Source: Deltaproteobacteria bacterium
Lineage (GTDB): Bacteria > Desulfobacterota > Desulfomonilia > UBA1062
Direction of reading: 5' to 3'
Assembly (NCBI GenBank): GCA_018434685.1
Contig: JAHDOV010000015.1
Coordinates: forward strand, 62,001 to 126,000
Length of the DNA: 64,000 bases
Position numbers and translations under genes: made by a program. How positions within the stretch are numbered: position 1 is the first letter of the stretch; the number at the start of each line of letters is the position of its first letter. Below the pieces are notes generated by a model. That model was not told the origin of the DNA. It ran no database searches and saw nothing but the letters and a program-made list of their open reading frames with translations. This document shows positions 44,320 to 62,408 of the stretch, in pieces.

Positions 44320-44455
44320 ATGGCTATCAGGGATCGTGCCCGACAGAGTAACTCTCGGATTCAAGACGTTTTCCCGATATAATCTCGGAACAGGTTACGG
44401 GTCGCGGGTGTCATCACCTGCTGTCATGTCCGAAAAAACAGCTTAAGGAGTAGGT

Positions 44456-45781
44456 ATGGACAACATAAAAGTCGGATTGATCGGTCTTGGAACCATTGGA
44501 ACAGGGGTGGCGAAAACGCTCCTTGAAAACAAGGCGCTCCTTGAAGAGAGGCTCGGCTTCTCCCTGACCTTAAAATCCATTGCCGATCTGGATATAACCA
44601 CCGACAGGGGGATCACGATCCCTGAGGGAATGCTCACGACAGATACGTTCTCCCTTATCCAGGATCCTGAAATAGACATCATCGTCGAACTCATCGGGGG
44701 CATGAACCCGGCGAAGAAGTTTATTCTCGAGGCGCTCAAGTCCGGAAAGCATGTGGTCACCGCAAACAAGGCCCTGCTGGCAACCCATGGGAAGGAACTC
44801 TTCGATGCCGCCCAGACCTATGGGAAAGACCTCTACTACGAGGCTTCTGTCGGCGGCGGTATACCCATTATCAAGGCGCTCAGGGAGTCGCTCGTTGCAA
44901 ACAATTACACGTTCATCTACGGCATTCTCAACGGTACGTGCAATTTCATCCTTACCGAGATGACCGAGAAGGGCTCCACGTTCAGGGAGACCCTGGATGA
45001 GGCCATGAACCTGGGATACGCGGAGGCAGACCCGACCATGGACATCGAAGGCATCGATGCGGCCCATAAACTTGCCATCATCACCTCGCTGGCCTACGGG
45101 GTCCCGCCTGACCTGAAGAGCGTTTATGTAGAGGGAATCACCAATCTCGACAGACTCGATGTAACCTATGCCCGGGAGCTCGGGTACAAGGTGAAACTGC
45201 TGGCGCTCGCCATAGACAGGGGTGACCAGGTGGAGGCACGGGTGCACCCGACCCTGCTGCCGTTCAATTACCTCCTCTCGAAGGTCGACGGCGTGTTCAA
45301 CGCCTTCTATGTCAGGGGTGATATTGTCGATTCAACGCTCTTTTACGGCAGGGGCGCCGGGATGATGCCCACCGCCTCGGCAGTGGTAAGCGACATAGCG
45401 GATATCGGAAGGAATATCTGGGCCGGTATCGCCGGCAGGATCCCCCATCTGGGCTACCGCAAGGATATAGCGAAACCCAAACGATACATGGCCATAGACG
45501 ATATCCATACAAACTACTACATGCGCATAAATGTGCTGGACAAACCCGGGGTGCTGGCCCAGATTGCAGGAATCCTCGCAGAGCGGAACATCAGCATTGT
45601 CTCGGTCATTCAGAAGCCTGCGCACGAACAGGGCTTTGTTCCTCTCGTCCTGCTGACTCACGAGGCACAGGAGTCCAGCATCAGAAGCGCCGTGAAGGAG
45701 ATCGGAAACCTCGAAGAGGTCGGCGGCACACCCGTGGTTCTTAGGGTTGAGGACAAGGCACTGAAGAATCATTCATCATGA
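44456..45781 (+). CDS. hom: Homoserine dehydrogenase
   Basis: This 441-residue enzyme reduces aspartate semialdehyde to homoserine for threonine and methionine. It has the NAD(P) motif IGLGTIGTGVA (about 6-16), the ANKALLATHG and GGGIPIIKALRE substrate-binding stretches, NGTCNFI, and a C-terminal ACT domain from about residue 350 (INVLDKPGVLAQIAGILAE) for feedback control. Its AAGGAG ribosome site is six bases before the ATG. The next gene, 81 bases on, is the ApgM-like protein. Confidence 0.96.
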   Translation: MDNIKVGLIGLGTIGTGVAKTLLENKALLEERLGFSLTLKSIADLDITTDRGITIPEGMLTTDTFSLIQDPEIDIIVELIGGMNPAKKFILEALKSGKHVVTANKALLATHGKELFDAAQTYGKDLYYEASVGGGIPIIKALRESLVANNYTFIYGILNGTCNFILTEMTEKGSTFRETLDEAMNLGYAEADPTMDIEGIDAAHKLAIITSLAYGVPPDLKSVYVEGITNLDRLDVTYARELGYKVKLLALAIDRGDQVEARVHPTLLPFNYLLSKVDGVFNAFYVRGDIVDSTLFYGRGAGMMPTASAVVSDIADIGRNIWAGIAGRIPHLGYRKDIAKPKRYMAIDDIHTNYYMRINVLDKPGVLAQIAGILAERNISIVSVIQKPAHEQGFVPLVLLTHEAQESSIRSAVKEIGNLEEVGGTPVVLRVEDKALKNHSS

Positions 45782-45862
45782 TCCGCATATACATGATGGT
45801 GCATGGGCACGGGCAAAGAAGACACAAGGCTGTACCAGTAATCTTACCATGGAGGAATTAAC

Positions 45863-47062
45863 GTGAAGACCTTGATACTGCTGGGCGACGGCATGGCTGA
45901 CGAGCCCCTTGAAGAGCTTATGGGAAAGACACCTCTCGATGTGGCTCATACGCCGTATATGGACAAACTTGCTACCCGCGGAGAGCTCGGGATGGTCAGG
46001 ACGGTGAAGGCTGGATTTCCACCCGGCAGCGACGTGGCCAACATGTCTGTCCTCGGTCTCGATCCGAGCCTGTACTACACAGGCAGGGCACCTATCGAGG
46101 CGATCAGCATGGGGGTTGACCTTCACGAGGACGACACTGCCTTCAGGATAAACCTCGTGACCCTCACCCACAGAGAAAGAGGCCTCATCATGGAAGATTA
46201 CTGTTCCGATCACATATCCACCCAGGAGGCCCGGGAGCTCATAGATGCCTTGCGGGTCCTGGTGGAGCAGTATGAGCAGATCCATGTATACCCCGGGATC
46301 GAATACCGGCACCTCATGGTTATCCGGGGATTCGAGAACAAGGCGCTGCATACAACACCCCCTCATGACATTATCGGTGAGTATATCGATAAATTCCTGC
46401 CGAACGATGAGCTTCTCACAAAGCTCACCCATGACTCGATGAAGCTTCTCAAGGATCATCCCATAAATCTCGGAAGGAGAAAACAGGGAAAGAGAGAGGC
46501 CACGGCCATCTGGCCCTGGGGTGAGGGGAAGGCCCGGAGAAACCCCACCCTGCAGGACGAATACGGCATCTCCGGTGCCATGATATCGGCGGTTGATCTC
46601 TTGAAGGGCCTCGGCAAACTGCGGGGCATGGAGGTCATTACCGTGCCGGGGGCTACGGGCTGGATAGACACCAATTATATCGGGAAGGCCCAGGCTGCCC
46701 TCGAGGCACTCAGCCGGCACGATCTGGTCTTCGTGCACGTGGAAGCGCCGGATGAAGCAGGTCATTCGGGCCTGATTCGAGAAAAGATCCAGGCCATCGA
46801 GAACTTTGACGAAATGATCGTGGGTCATATTCTCACGAACATTGAAAGCCAGGATATACCGTTTCGGGTCCTCTTCCTGCCCGATCATCCGACGCCCATC
46901 GCCAAGAGGACACACACGTCCGATCCCGTGCCCTTCGTCATTTATGACAGCACCGATACGAAGAACAACCCCTGGAGATTCACGGAGAAGGACGCCGGCG
47001 AGACCGGTCTGTTCATAGAGGAAGGATGCTCGCTGCTCGGCAGGCTGCTGCAGAAAGGGTGA
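45863..47062 (+). CDS. apgM: ApgM-type cofactor-independent phosphoglycerate mutase-like protein, candidate homoserine kinase
   Basis: The 399-residue protein belongs to the alkaline phosphatase-like archaeal-type iPGM family (COG3635). Metal and catalytic sites are visible: GDGMADEP at the start, PPGSDVANMSVLG (about 51-63) with the nucleophile Ser, HVEAPDEAGHSG (about 293-304), and the FLPDHPTP end motif. In bacteria that have another phosphoglycerate mutase, genes of this family next to hom are proposed to provide the homoserine kinase step. Here hom is directly upstream and no thrB is seen. I rate threonine synthesis the likelier role, glycolysis the alternative. Confidence 0.88.
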   Translation: MKTLILLGDGMADEPLEELMGKTPLDVAHTPYMDKLATRGELGMVRTVKAGFPPGSDVANMSVLGLDPSLYYTGRAPIEAISMGVDLHEDDTAFRINLVTLTHRERGLIMEDYCSDHISTQEARELIDALRVLVEQYEQIHVYPGIEYRHLMVIRGFENKALHTTPPHDIIGEYIDKFLPNDELLTKLTHDSMKLLKDHPINLGRRKQGKREATAIWPWGEGKARRNPTLQDEYGISGAMISAVDLLKGLGKLRGMEVITVPGATGWIDTNYIGKAQAALEALSRHDLVFVHVEAPDEAGHSGLIREKIQAIENFDEMIVGHILTNIESQDIPFRVLFLPDHPTPIAKRTHTSDPVPFVIYDSTDTKNNPWRFTEKDAGETGLFIEEGCSLLGRLLQKG

Positions 47063-47078: not shown

Positions 47079-47975
47079 CTAGCGTTTGAACGCCGACACG
47101 AAACTGCTCTGCCGGTCGATCTCCAGATCGAGCTGGCTGAGCAGTTTCACCATGTCTTCAGTTGCAAAATCCTCCTTCAGGCCATGCAGTGTCGGGAGGA
47201 TTCCCTTATCTATGGTAAGAAAGTAGTGCTCCTTCAGCGGGGATATCCCCTTGACGGTACAGATCAGGTCCGCAAGGTGCACACATGACGCAAAGGCAGG
47301 ATCGGTCCGGGAACGAGCAGGGTCGTGATGAAAGGTTACCGCATCCGATATATCCTGCGGAAACATCCAGGAATCCAGGAGCCTCCCGCCCACCTCGGCA
47401 TGAGATATCCCGAAATATTCCTCTTCGAGGGCATGGTAATTCATCTTGTTGTCATCTTCTTCCATTACCCACAGCAGGTCATTGAACTTTTCAGGAAGAT
47501 ACTGGGAGAGGAAAATCTTCCCGATGTCATGGAGGAGCCCGCCGACAAAGAATTTGCCGTCCAGCTTGAGATTCAGGTAGCCGGCCAGCATCCGAGATCC
47601 TACCCCCACGGCAAAACAATGGCGCCACAACCTCTCGGTAAATTCCGACCCTCTGCGGTCGAACAGCTGGACAACGGACATGCTCAAGGCTATGTTCTGG
47701 ATTTCCTGGAAGCCCAGGATCACGACGGCGTGAGAGATGGTCGAGATCTTCTTCACGAAGCCGTAGTATGACGAGTTCGCGATAGAGAGTATCCTCGTGG
47801 TCAATGCCGGATCGCTCTCGATGATATTCGTCAGGTCAACGGCAGAAGAATTTTTCCCTGAAGTCACATCGAGTATCTCGTGCACCACATGCGGGAGGGT
47901 AAGGATGTCCGTCGTCCTCGAGAGGATCTCCAATATCTGTTCTCTGGCCTGTTCCGGACGCAGTTTACCTTCCAC
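47079..47975 (-). CDS. HDOD-domain signalling protein
   Basis: The 298-residue protein is essentially one HDOD domain (about 15-230) with the LPHVVHEIL start, the DPALTTRILSIANSSYYG helix pair, and the degenerate HD motif GGLLHDIGK. HDOD proteins are thought to act as scaffolds in chemotaxis, c-di-GMP and stress signalling and usually lack nuclease activity. No partner domain is fused. It faces apgM tail to tail with 16 bases between, and is divergent from another HDOD gene 210 bases away. Confidence 0.87.
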   Translation of the reverse strand: MEGKLRPEQAREQILEILSRTTDILTLPHVVHEILDVTSGKNSSAVDLTNIIESDPALTTRILSIANSSYYGFVKKISTISHAVVILGFQEIQNIALSMSVVQLFDRRGSEFTERLWRHCFAVGVGSRMLAGYLNLKLDGKFFVGGLLHDIGKIFLSQYLPEKFNDLLWVMEEDDNKMNYHALEEEYFGISHAEVGGRLLDSWMFPQDISDAVTFHHDPARSRTDPAFASCVHLADLICTVKGISPLKEHYFLTIDKGILPTLHGLKEDFATEDMVKLLSQLDLEIDRQSSFVSAFKR

Positions 47976-48185: not shown

Positions 48186-49259
48186 ATGATGGAAGGTACA
48201 AATATATTGTTGCTGATCATATGCACGCTCACGGCCGTTGCACTCATAGTCGCATTCGTGAAGATCTTTCTGGAGAAGTCCAGGCCTCCTATCAGGAAGA
48301 CACCCGCCCGCTACGTAACCATCTCATCGGACGATGATGTTGATTCCTTCATGGCCGTGTATGATCTCGACTGGAAACCGAACAGGGAGAAACCCGAAGA
48401 GCTTTCCGCCGGCATCGAATCTATTATCAATAATATAGAAAGCATATCCCCCCTGGTAACGGAGCTGTCCTCGAGGTTGAACGACCCTGACATCAATCCC
48501 AAGGATATCAGCAAACTCATCATAACCGATCAGGGACTCACCTCGTTCATCCTGAAACGGGTCAATTCTCCATTTTATGGACTCGTGCAGAAGGTTGACA
48601 ATATCTTCAATGCCATCGTCATCCTGGGCTATAACGAGATCTATCGCATCGTCATGGAAGAGAGGACCTCGAGAATCGGACTGCGGCCATCACGCAAGGA
48701 ATGGATCCACTCGAACCTCACCTCCACAATTGCGGGTTACCTTGCCAGCACGTCCAGGATCGGCGTGCCTGGAGGAACCATGGTCACCCTGGGCATGCTC
48801 CACGACATAGCCAAGATCATCATGGAGCAGTCTCTTCCGCGGCCCGAGGGCGGTTTCCCTGAAGATCCGAGGGAACGCCTGCGGGAGGAAAGCGAGCTGT
48901 ACGGCATCGACCATGCCATGCTGGGAGGAATGCTGGCCAGAAGGTGGCGAATGCCCGAGAAGCTGATCACGGTCATAGAAAGGCATCACTGGCCCATGTT
49001 CTGGCCTCTGAGGGAAATTGCCCATGATTCACCGGACACCGTCAAGGAACTTGCCCTCCTGAGCATATCGGATGTGGCTGCAAAGAACTTCATGCAGGAA
49101 CTGGAAGGACCATACATCGGCAATGATTACTACCGGTTCATCAACAAGCCCCCCAAGATCGAGGGTATCCTCAAGCCGGAGATCATGCGGGATCTCAAGA
49201 GAATCAAACACATAGGGGATACCGACACGGCCGAGGCGACCGCGGCGAAACAACCCTGA
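48186..49259 (+). CDS. Membrane-anchored HDOD-domain protein
   Basis: The 357-residue protein begins with a transmembrane helix (about residues 6-29), a linker, and an HDOD domain from about 80 to 290, with ISKLIITDQGLTSFILKRVNSPFYGL and the HD motif LGMLHDIAK. It resembles the first half of the neighbouring soluble HDOD gene in fold but is clearly different in sequence. It would be tethered to the inner membrane with the domain in the cytosol. The two HDOD genes share a 210-base divergent control region. Confidence 0.85.
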   Translation: MMEGTNILLLIICTLTAVALIVAFVKIFLEKSRPPIRKTPARYVTISSDDDVDSFMAVYDLDWKPNREKPEELSAGIESIINNIESISPLVTELSSRLNDPDINPKDISKLIITDQGLTSFILKRVNSPFYGLVQKVDNIFNAIVILGYNEIYRIVMEERTSRIGLRPSRKEWIHSNLTSTIAGYLASTSRIGVPGGTMVTLGMLHDIAKIIMEQSLPRPEGGFPEDPRERLREESELYGIDHAMLGGMLARRWRMPEKLITVIERHHWPMFWPLREIAHDSPDTVKELALLSISDVAAKNFMQELEGPYIGNDYYRFINKPPKIEGILKPEIMRDLKRIKHIGDTDTAEATAAKQP

Positions 49260-61229: not shown

Positions 61230-62408
61230 TCAGAATCCCGCAGTGGATATGAAACATCCACCGCCGCCTCCGCCACCACCGCCTGCTGCAACGCTGTCAT
61301 CCTGGGTACCTGCGGCATCTTCCGCACTTGAGAAGACCCTGAAGCTGCCGAGTTCCTGGGAAGAAAAACTCACCAGACCGTTCGACGATGTCACCCCATC
61401 GACATCCTCCCAGGTATCGTTCGCCTCGTCATAATACTGCACAGCCGGATTCTCGCCTTCGTAAGGGGCGGTTATGAGTGCCGGCTTCGCGAGCACCAGT
61501 CCGAAGGGAAGGACATCGAACTCGAAGTAATCACTGTCGTATTCAACGGCAGAGACAGCTTCCACTCTCATATTTCCGATCCCTATGGGCACCTGCCGGA
61601 TTACGGCATCTGCAGGGATCTCGATGCTTATACCGTAGGAGGTGTCCTCGAGGTTCATCTGATACCCGGGTTCGTACTCTCCCAGAACTGACAACTGGTC
61701 AGTAACCGAAACCCTCAGGCGATAAACGAGTGCTGAAACATCGTCGATCACATCGTACAGGTAAGCCCCCTGCGTGTCGGTCTGAAGAAGATTATCCTGC
61801 GGCTCGGGATACAGGTCTGACAGCGGGATAATGGGATAGCTTCCCTGTGGGTTCACGATGGACAGATCAATGGCCTCACCGACCTCGCCGATAACATCCT
61901 TGAGAACATCGTCTGTCTCGGGCCTGTCAGCGGGATCAAGTGGTGATGTGCCCGCCATGTACTCCACAAGGTTCACCACGCCGTCCTGGTCTGTATCCGC
62001 CAGCGAATCCGACGGGTCAGCCGGGTCCATCCCCAGAGACAATTCAAAGGCATCCGGCATTCCGTCCAAATCGGCATCAGGCAGAGCACCACTGTCTTCA
62101 CTCGGGATGAAGATGTAGGCTTCGGAGGAATAATCGCTCTCATTCCCGGTGGCATCATAGGCGGTAACCGCGAAAAAGTAGGCACTCGCTTCAGCCAAGC
62201 CCGGAACATCCACACTCGTTGCGAGCCCGACATCAAGGGTCTGCTGGTACGAGCGGCTGGAGGTACCGTAGTATACCTTGTAGCCGTCAAGATCCGACTC
62301 GGAGTTGCTGTTCCAACTGATCCTGACCGTTGCAGCAAATGCATACTGTGCCAGGAAAACCATACTGACCATGAAAACCAGTGTCTTTATCGTCTTTGTT
62401 ATCTTCAT
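61230..62408 (-). CDS. Secreted fibronectin III / calcium-repeat protein ending in a polyglycine-CFI motif
   Basis: The 392-residue protein starts at 62408 with a signal peptide (KITKTIKTLVFMVSMVFLAQYAFAA). A fibronectin type III domain follows (about 27-105, VRISWNSNSESDLDGYKVYY), then thrombospondin type 3-like calcium repeats (DADLDGMPDAFELSLGMDP, DTDQDGVVNLVEYMAGTSP, about 115-160) and a beta-rich region. It ends in nine Gly then CFISTAGF. The Gly-Gly-Cys-Phe-Ile ending is a known form in deltaproteobacterial exported proteins, where it is usually followed by a hydrophobic helix and basic tail; here the chain stops straight after. It is probably exported and kept at the cell surface. Confidence 0.85.
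   Translation of the reverse strand: MKITKTIKTLVFMVSMVFLAQYAFAATVRISWNSNSESDLDGYKVYYGTSSRSYQQTLDVGLATSVDVPGLAEASAYFFAVTAYDATGNESDYSSEAYIFIPSEDSGALPDADLDGMPDAFELSLGMDPADPSDSLADTDQDGVVNLVEYMAGTSPLDPADRPETDDVLKDVIGEVGEAIDLSIVNPQGSYPIIPLSDLYPEPQDNLLQTDTQGAYLYDVIDDVSALVYRLRVSVTDQLSVLGEYEPGYQMNLEDTSYGISIEIPADAVIRQVPIGIGNMRVEAVSAVEYDSDYFEFDVLPFGLVLAKPALITAPYEGENPAVQYYDEANDTWEDVDGVTSSNGLVSFSSQELGSFRVFSSAEDAAGTQDDSVAAGGGGGGGGGCFISTAGF

Follow-up and report, generated by a model that had tools for sequence, protein, structure and literature searches.

Threonine synthesis requires that homoserine, the product of Hom, be phosphorylated before ThrC can act, and the question raised by this locus is which protein would perform that step in a bacterium where hom is followed by a gene of the cofactor-independent phosphoglycerate mutase (ApgM) fold. 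We examined a window of 64,000 nucleotides (positions 62,001 to 126,000 of contig JAHDOV010000015.1) from a Deltaproteobacteria genome, hereafter G000. A sequence-only reading of this DNA had placed an ApgM-type gene directly after hom, and both open reading frames were indeed recovered there, as follows (window coordinates).

44446-44450, + strand: AGGAG, ribosome site of hom (sequence).
44456..45781, + strand: hom, homoserine dehydrogenase with a C-terminal ACT domain, 441 aa (ORF, profile and domain matches).
45851..45855, + strand: GGAGG, ribosome-binding site of the TIGR02535 gene (sequence).
45863..47062, + strand: TIGR02535 member of ApgM fold, 399 aa, GTG start at 45863, proposed homoserine phosphotransferase, ThrB2 (ORF, profile and domain matches, AlphaFold model, PDB match).

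The hom product is complete, with NAD-binding, Homoserine_dh and ACT domains in the domain search and a score of 540 bits against NF004976 (cut-off 205). The two genes are in line on the same strand with 81 bp between them. No terminator-like site was seen in this interval, and the promoter/terminator scan gave no more sites than shuffled sequences. Two divergent HDOD-domain genes lie just downstream of the TIGR02535 gene (window 47079-47975 and 48186-49259).

To place this pair in its metabolic context, we searched the whole host genome (4.29 Mb, 99.19% complete, 0.86% contaminated). The thrB profile (TIGR00191, GHMP) gave a single match of 32.7 bits, against a cut-off of 168.25, and the only place in the genome with a Pfam GHMP kinase domain is this same site. 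The protein was rejected as a real thrB, as it is ispE (191.8 bits, cut-off 138.7). The alternative kinase HSK2 (TIGR00938, cut-off 255.9) gave no match at E<=1e-20. Threonine synthase is present (thrC, 211 bits, cut-off 167.1, G000:C47:10069-11055). Judged by these profiles, G000 has hom and thrC and is without the standard enzyme for the step between them; the thrB, TIGR00938 and GHMP domain searches of this genome yielded no other candidate. ThrB and HSK2, whose folds are unrelated to the ApgM fold, are the enzymes that carry out the reaction proposed here for the window protein.

The window protein contains PhosphMutase and Metalloenzyme domains and matches TIGR02535, named 'proposed homoserine kinase', over the full model (1-397 of 397; 517.7 bits, cut-off 446.3). 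It also passes TIGR00306 (apgM; 503 bits, cut-off 320) and NF003242 (PRK04200; 527.1 bits, cut-off 426), the latter named cofactor-independent phosphoglycerate mutase. Two curated NCBIfam models with conflicting names, NF003242 and TIGR02535, are thus passed by one protein; database annotation of the family will therefore be split, and the annotation of any member depends on which model name wins. The AlphaFold model (mean pLDDT 96.0, pTM 0.91) was compared with solved structures using Foldseek and VIA. The best PDB match was 2zkt (Z 44.0, 33% identity over 368 residues), followed by 3kd8 (Z 32.4) and then by iPGM, nucleotide pyrophosphatases, phosphopentomutase and alkaline phosphatase. One alternative is that the gene encodes an ordinary cofactor-independent phosphoglycerate mutase, as the NF003242 and TIGR00306 names say and as the resemblance to the archaeal mutases, with conserved metal ligands, would allow. 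Against this, the protein falls far below the cut-off of PRK04024, the archaeal ApgM phosphoglycerate mutase (299.7 bits, cut-off 489), and in a tree of 52 rows TIGR02535 forms one side of a branch with an SH-aLRT of 100.

The mutase inventory of G000 bears on the same alternative. Neither gpmI nor gpmA was found: for gpmI only the window gene matched, at 21.8 bits, and gpmA gave no match at E<=1e-40. The genome encodes a second ApgM-type protein (G000:C47:63587-64786), which scores 589.8 bits against PRK04135 (cut-off 468), so the window gene was rejected as the sole mutase of G000. This protein belongs to the same superfamily as the window protein and keeps Ser56, most metal ligands and all five basic residues that are replaced in TIGR02535 (see below). 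A real thrB elsewhere in the genome, together with no other mutase, would have spoken against the sequence-only reading; what we found is the reverse, as thrB is missing, ispE being the only GHMP kinase, and the mutase is of the PRK04135 type, with gpmI and gpmA both absent.

We then extended the comparison to 198 genomes of the phylum and 14 control genomes. After removal of 40 of the 198 (completeness <90% or contamination >5%), 158 good-quality genomes remained. In this set, 38 genomes carry PRK04135 only, 111 carry gpmI/gpmA only, 3 carry both and 6 neither, a mutual exclusion with a Fisher p of about 1e-26, not corrected for relatedness. Such a distribution would be expected if PRK04135 served as the mutase in the genomes that carry it. 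TIGR02535, on the other hand, co-occurs with every mutase type, being found in 39/41 PRK04135, 81/98 gpmI and 17/24 gpmA genomes, and a different type of mutase is present in 129 of its 132 good-quality carriers. Given that PRK04135 and gpmI/gpmA exclude one another, whereas TIGR02535 occurs alongside each of them, it follows that TIGR02535 should not be the glycolytic mutase. On these sequence comparisons, we consider it very unlikely that the window gene is one. The converse assignment, PRK04135 as homoserine kinase, was rejected, since this family adjoins hom or thrC in 0/34 loci and excludes gpmI/gpmA. It may be added that PRK04135 proteins, including the one in G000, have Glu at the position of the metal ligand His301 of other ApgM types in 31/31 rows; despite this, they behave across genomes like a sole mutase.

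The distribution of the threonine genes was then considered. TIGR02535 exceeds its cut-off in 157/198 genomes of the phylum, compared with 5/198 for thrB and 0/198 for TIGR00938 (weaker, HSK2-like matches in 9), and thrC is present in 185/198. Among the good-quality genomes, 132/158 carry TIGR02535; neither thrB nor an HSK2-like gene was detected in 123 of these 132 carriers, the remaining 9 having one or the other alongside TIGR02535, and thrC is present in 129. A two-by-two comparison of TIGR02535 with thrB/HSK2-like genes across the 158 genomes gave p = 0.057. Moreover, 21 good-quality genomes are without all three types (TIGR02535 over cut-off, thrB and an HSK2-like gene), and 20 of the 21 have thrC; in all these counts, probable real members under the TIGR02535 cut-off (e.g., those of G040, G092, G113, G142 and G144) are scored as absent. 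Five of the 21 belong to one genus, g69 (G076, G109, G138, G165 and G190), and 16 are others. At least one other homoserine kinase route thus probably exists in the phylum. These 21 genomes and the p value make the absence of thrB weaker evidence than it appears; as far as gene content can tell, the evidence lies in the many thrC-bearing genomes that offer TIGR02535 as their sole candidate, rather than in a strict anticorrelation. In the 14 controls, thrB exceeded its cut-off in 11 and TIGR02535 in 2. Both thrB and TIGR00938 are absent from two of the controls, Bacteroides and Methanosarcina, and these are presumably also the two that carry TIGR02535.

To determine whether the pairing with hom is conserved, we inspected gene neighbourhoods in 66 of the 157 TIGR02535 carriers, selected from the genomes listed so as to have at least one from each family. 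In 48/66 loci, hom was found no more than 5 kb away, in every case upstream of the TIGR02535 gene and in the same orientation, which indicates that the pairing is not due to chance; the gap is <=150 bp in 32/66. By comparison, thrC is near in 10/66. At a distance of <=1.5 kb, hom or thrC is present in 48/66 TIGR02535 loci versus 0/34 PRK04135 loci. Of 80 named relatives taken from a genome scan, which include Thermodesulfobacteriota, Nitrospirota, Clostridia and Methanosarcinales, 39/80 showed hom or thrC in the fetched stretch and 18/80 aspartate kinase; the 41/80 with neither hom nor thrC include some at contig ends. Other neighbours were also recorded. The CTP synthase gene pyrG lies at most 5 kb from the TIGR02535 gene in 10/66 loci (L089, L090, L092, L094, L103, L104, L116, L125, L139 and L145), with hom missing from the stretch fetched for 6 of these, and xerD is near in 3/66 phylum loci and 17/80 relatives. 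We read both as local synteny rather than function.

This conservation also bears on the idea that an undetected ThrB performs the step and that the TIGR02535 gene is a mere hitchhiker beside hom. The 21 genomes that lack all three searched types give that idea some room, but a neighbourhood common to 48/66 loci and a single GHMP kinase in the whole of G000, itself ispE, make it extremely improbable.

Residues were compared in an alignment of 111 TIGR02535 proteins with two archaeal mutase chains, 2zkt and 3kd8, and with 31 PRK04135 rows, of which 30 are distinct. Three codons of the window gene are referred to below.

46028..46030, + strand: codon of Ser56, aligned with the catalytic Ser of phosphoglycerate mutases; Ser in 109/111 and Thr in 2/111.
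46517..46519, + strand: codon of Trp219; Trp in 111/111 TIGR02535 proteins versus Arg in 31/31 PRK04135 rows and both archaeal PDB chains.
46742..46744, + strand: codon of Glu294, three residues before the metal ligand Asp297; Glu in 111/111 versus Lys in 31/31 PRK04135 rows and both archaeal PDB chains.

The positions D9, D297, H301, D341, H342 and H351 are kept in 111/111 TIGR02535 proteins; by analogy with iPGM, we take these to be the metal ligands and Ser56 to be the catalytic serine. The window protein further shares with the archaeal ApgM proteins (2zkt, 3kd8; PRK04024) the fold and the residues R75, R95, R149 and K308, which are common to TIGR02535 and the mutases compared. It differs from them at five basic positions, R113, R114, R117, R219 and K294, which are constant in the 31 PRK04135 rows, 2zkt and 3kd8. 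In TIGR02535 these are replaced by Y/F/H at 113, S/T/C/A at 114, H at 117 (102/111), W at 219 (111/111) and E at 294 (111/111), and the window protein reads Y, C, H, W and E. Four more residues are near-constant in TIGR02535 and different in the mutases, namely D169 (110/111), D245 (108/111), and E298 and W217 (111/111 each). In iPGM, basic residues hold the phosphoglycerate. We infer from the alignment that an acidic and aromatic pocket may have replaced one that held carboxylate and phosphate, as an amino-acid acceptor would need. With the five basic residues of the mutases lost, and with carriers that have gpmI, gpmA or PRK04135 alike, the ordinary-mutase explanation retains only a slight probability.

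The assignment of this family to threonine synthesis has precedents. The sequence-only reading referred to a proposal that such proteins act as a non-orthologous homoserine kinase in deltaproteobacteria; the proposal does exist in print for TIGR02535, or ThrB2, in PMC7311316 and PMC9026213, and it extends well beyond deltaproteobacteria. According to the former (GapMind, 2020), TIGR02535 was put forward by the TIGRFAM curators to stand in for homoserine kinase, with PEP, for instance, as the donor, mutants of BT2402 of Bacteroides thetaiotaomicron need threonine, and TIGR02535 occurs in 15/29 prototrophs without ThrB. The same paper cites a personal communication that an E. coli thrB mutant given BT2402 failed to grow on minimal medium. 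PMC9026213 (2022), which names the family ThrB2, describes its occurrence in gut genomes as complementary to thrB. The literature searched, in which few subscription journals were covered, contained no direct biochemical assay of homoserine phosphorylation by a TIGR02535 protein.

The window protein resembles this published system in that it is a full-length member over the curated cut-off, in that the family has the same kind of neighbours (hom, thrC and aspartate kinase), and in that thrB is absent from G000, as in the gut genomes treated in PMC9026213. It differs from the BT2402 system in that hom stands as a gene of its own, encoding an ACT domain, while thrC is on another contig, outside the operon; the mutant phenotype belongs to BT2402.

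Some of these data could also suit a different role in threonine synthesis or a related path, such as that of an L-threonine kinase, another amino-alcohol kinase or the partner of another kinase. The failure of BT2402 to rescue the E. coli thrB mutant (PMC7311316) would fit such a role, and a Dehalobacter member encoded in a cobalamin operon, Dehre_1608, was proposed as an L-threonine kinase in PMC4285132. We nevertheless regard it as unlikely, given the hom/thrC/aspartate kinase neighbourhood, the rescue of the BT2402 mutant phenotype by threonine (PMC7311316) and the outcome of the thrB, TIGR00938 and GHMP domain searches of G000, which turned up no alternative enzyme for this step.

Taken together, the product of the window gene is very probably a homoserine phosphotransferase that takes the place of ThrB and would act through phospho-Ser56. 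The view that it stands in for the missing homoserine kinase is supported by the lack of thrB and the separate mutase in G000, the activity itself being predicted. In the reaction that we infer, Hom would make homoserine, Ser56 in the two-metal centre of the ApgM-fold enzyme would accept a phosphoryl group, which the enzyme would then transfer to the gamma-hydroxyl of homoserine, and ThrC, encoded elsewhere in the genome, would convert the O-phosphohomoserine to threonine; the swapped residues would favour this acceptor. The donor could be PEP, as the TIGRFAM curators suggested, ATP or another nucleotide, pyrophosphate, or a phosphoglycerate. More tentatively, and with the balance of probability against it, TIGR02535 might be an ATP-independent homoserine phosphotransferase in which the two-metal phospho-Ser chemistry of the mutases has been turned to transfer between two different molecules. 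We speculate that Trp217-x-Trp219, Glu294 and Asp245 would form the new pocket, and that the donor would be scarce in aerobic E. coli (e.g., pyrophosphate) or the metal centre oxygen-sensitive, either of which would explain the failed complementation by BT2402.

The window gene is thus a further member of an already published prediction, to which we add the distinction of TIGR02535 from true mutases across the phylum, the neighbourhood control and the residue signature. The residue changes at the five basic positions, along with the exclusion pattern with the real mutases, offer a cheap and sharp test of the homoserine kinase idea. If the prediction is true, most of the phylum, together with Methanosarcina relatives, Bacteroides and many Clostridia, would make threonine via an enzyme that is also annotated as phosphoglycerate mutase, and metabolic models of these organisms would carry both a false gap, in the form of a missing homoserine kinase, and a false duplicate, in the form of two mutases.
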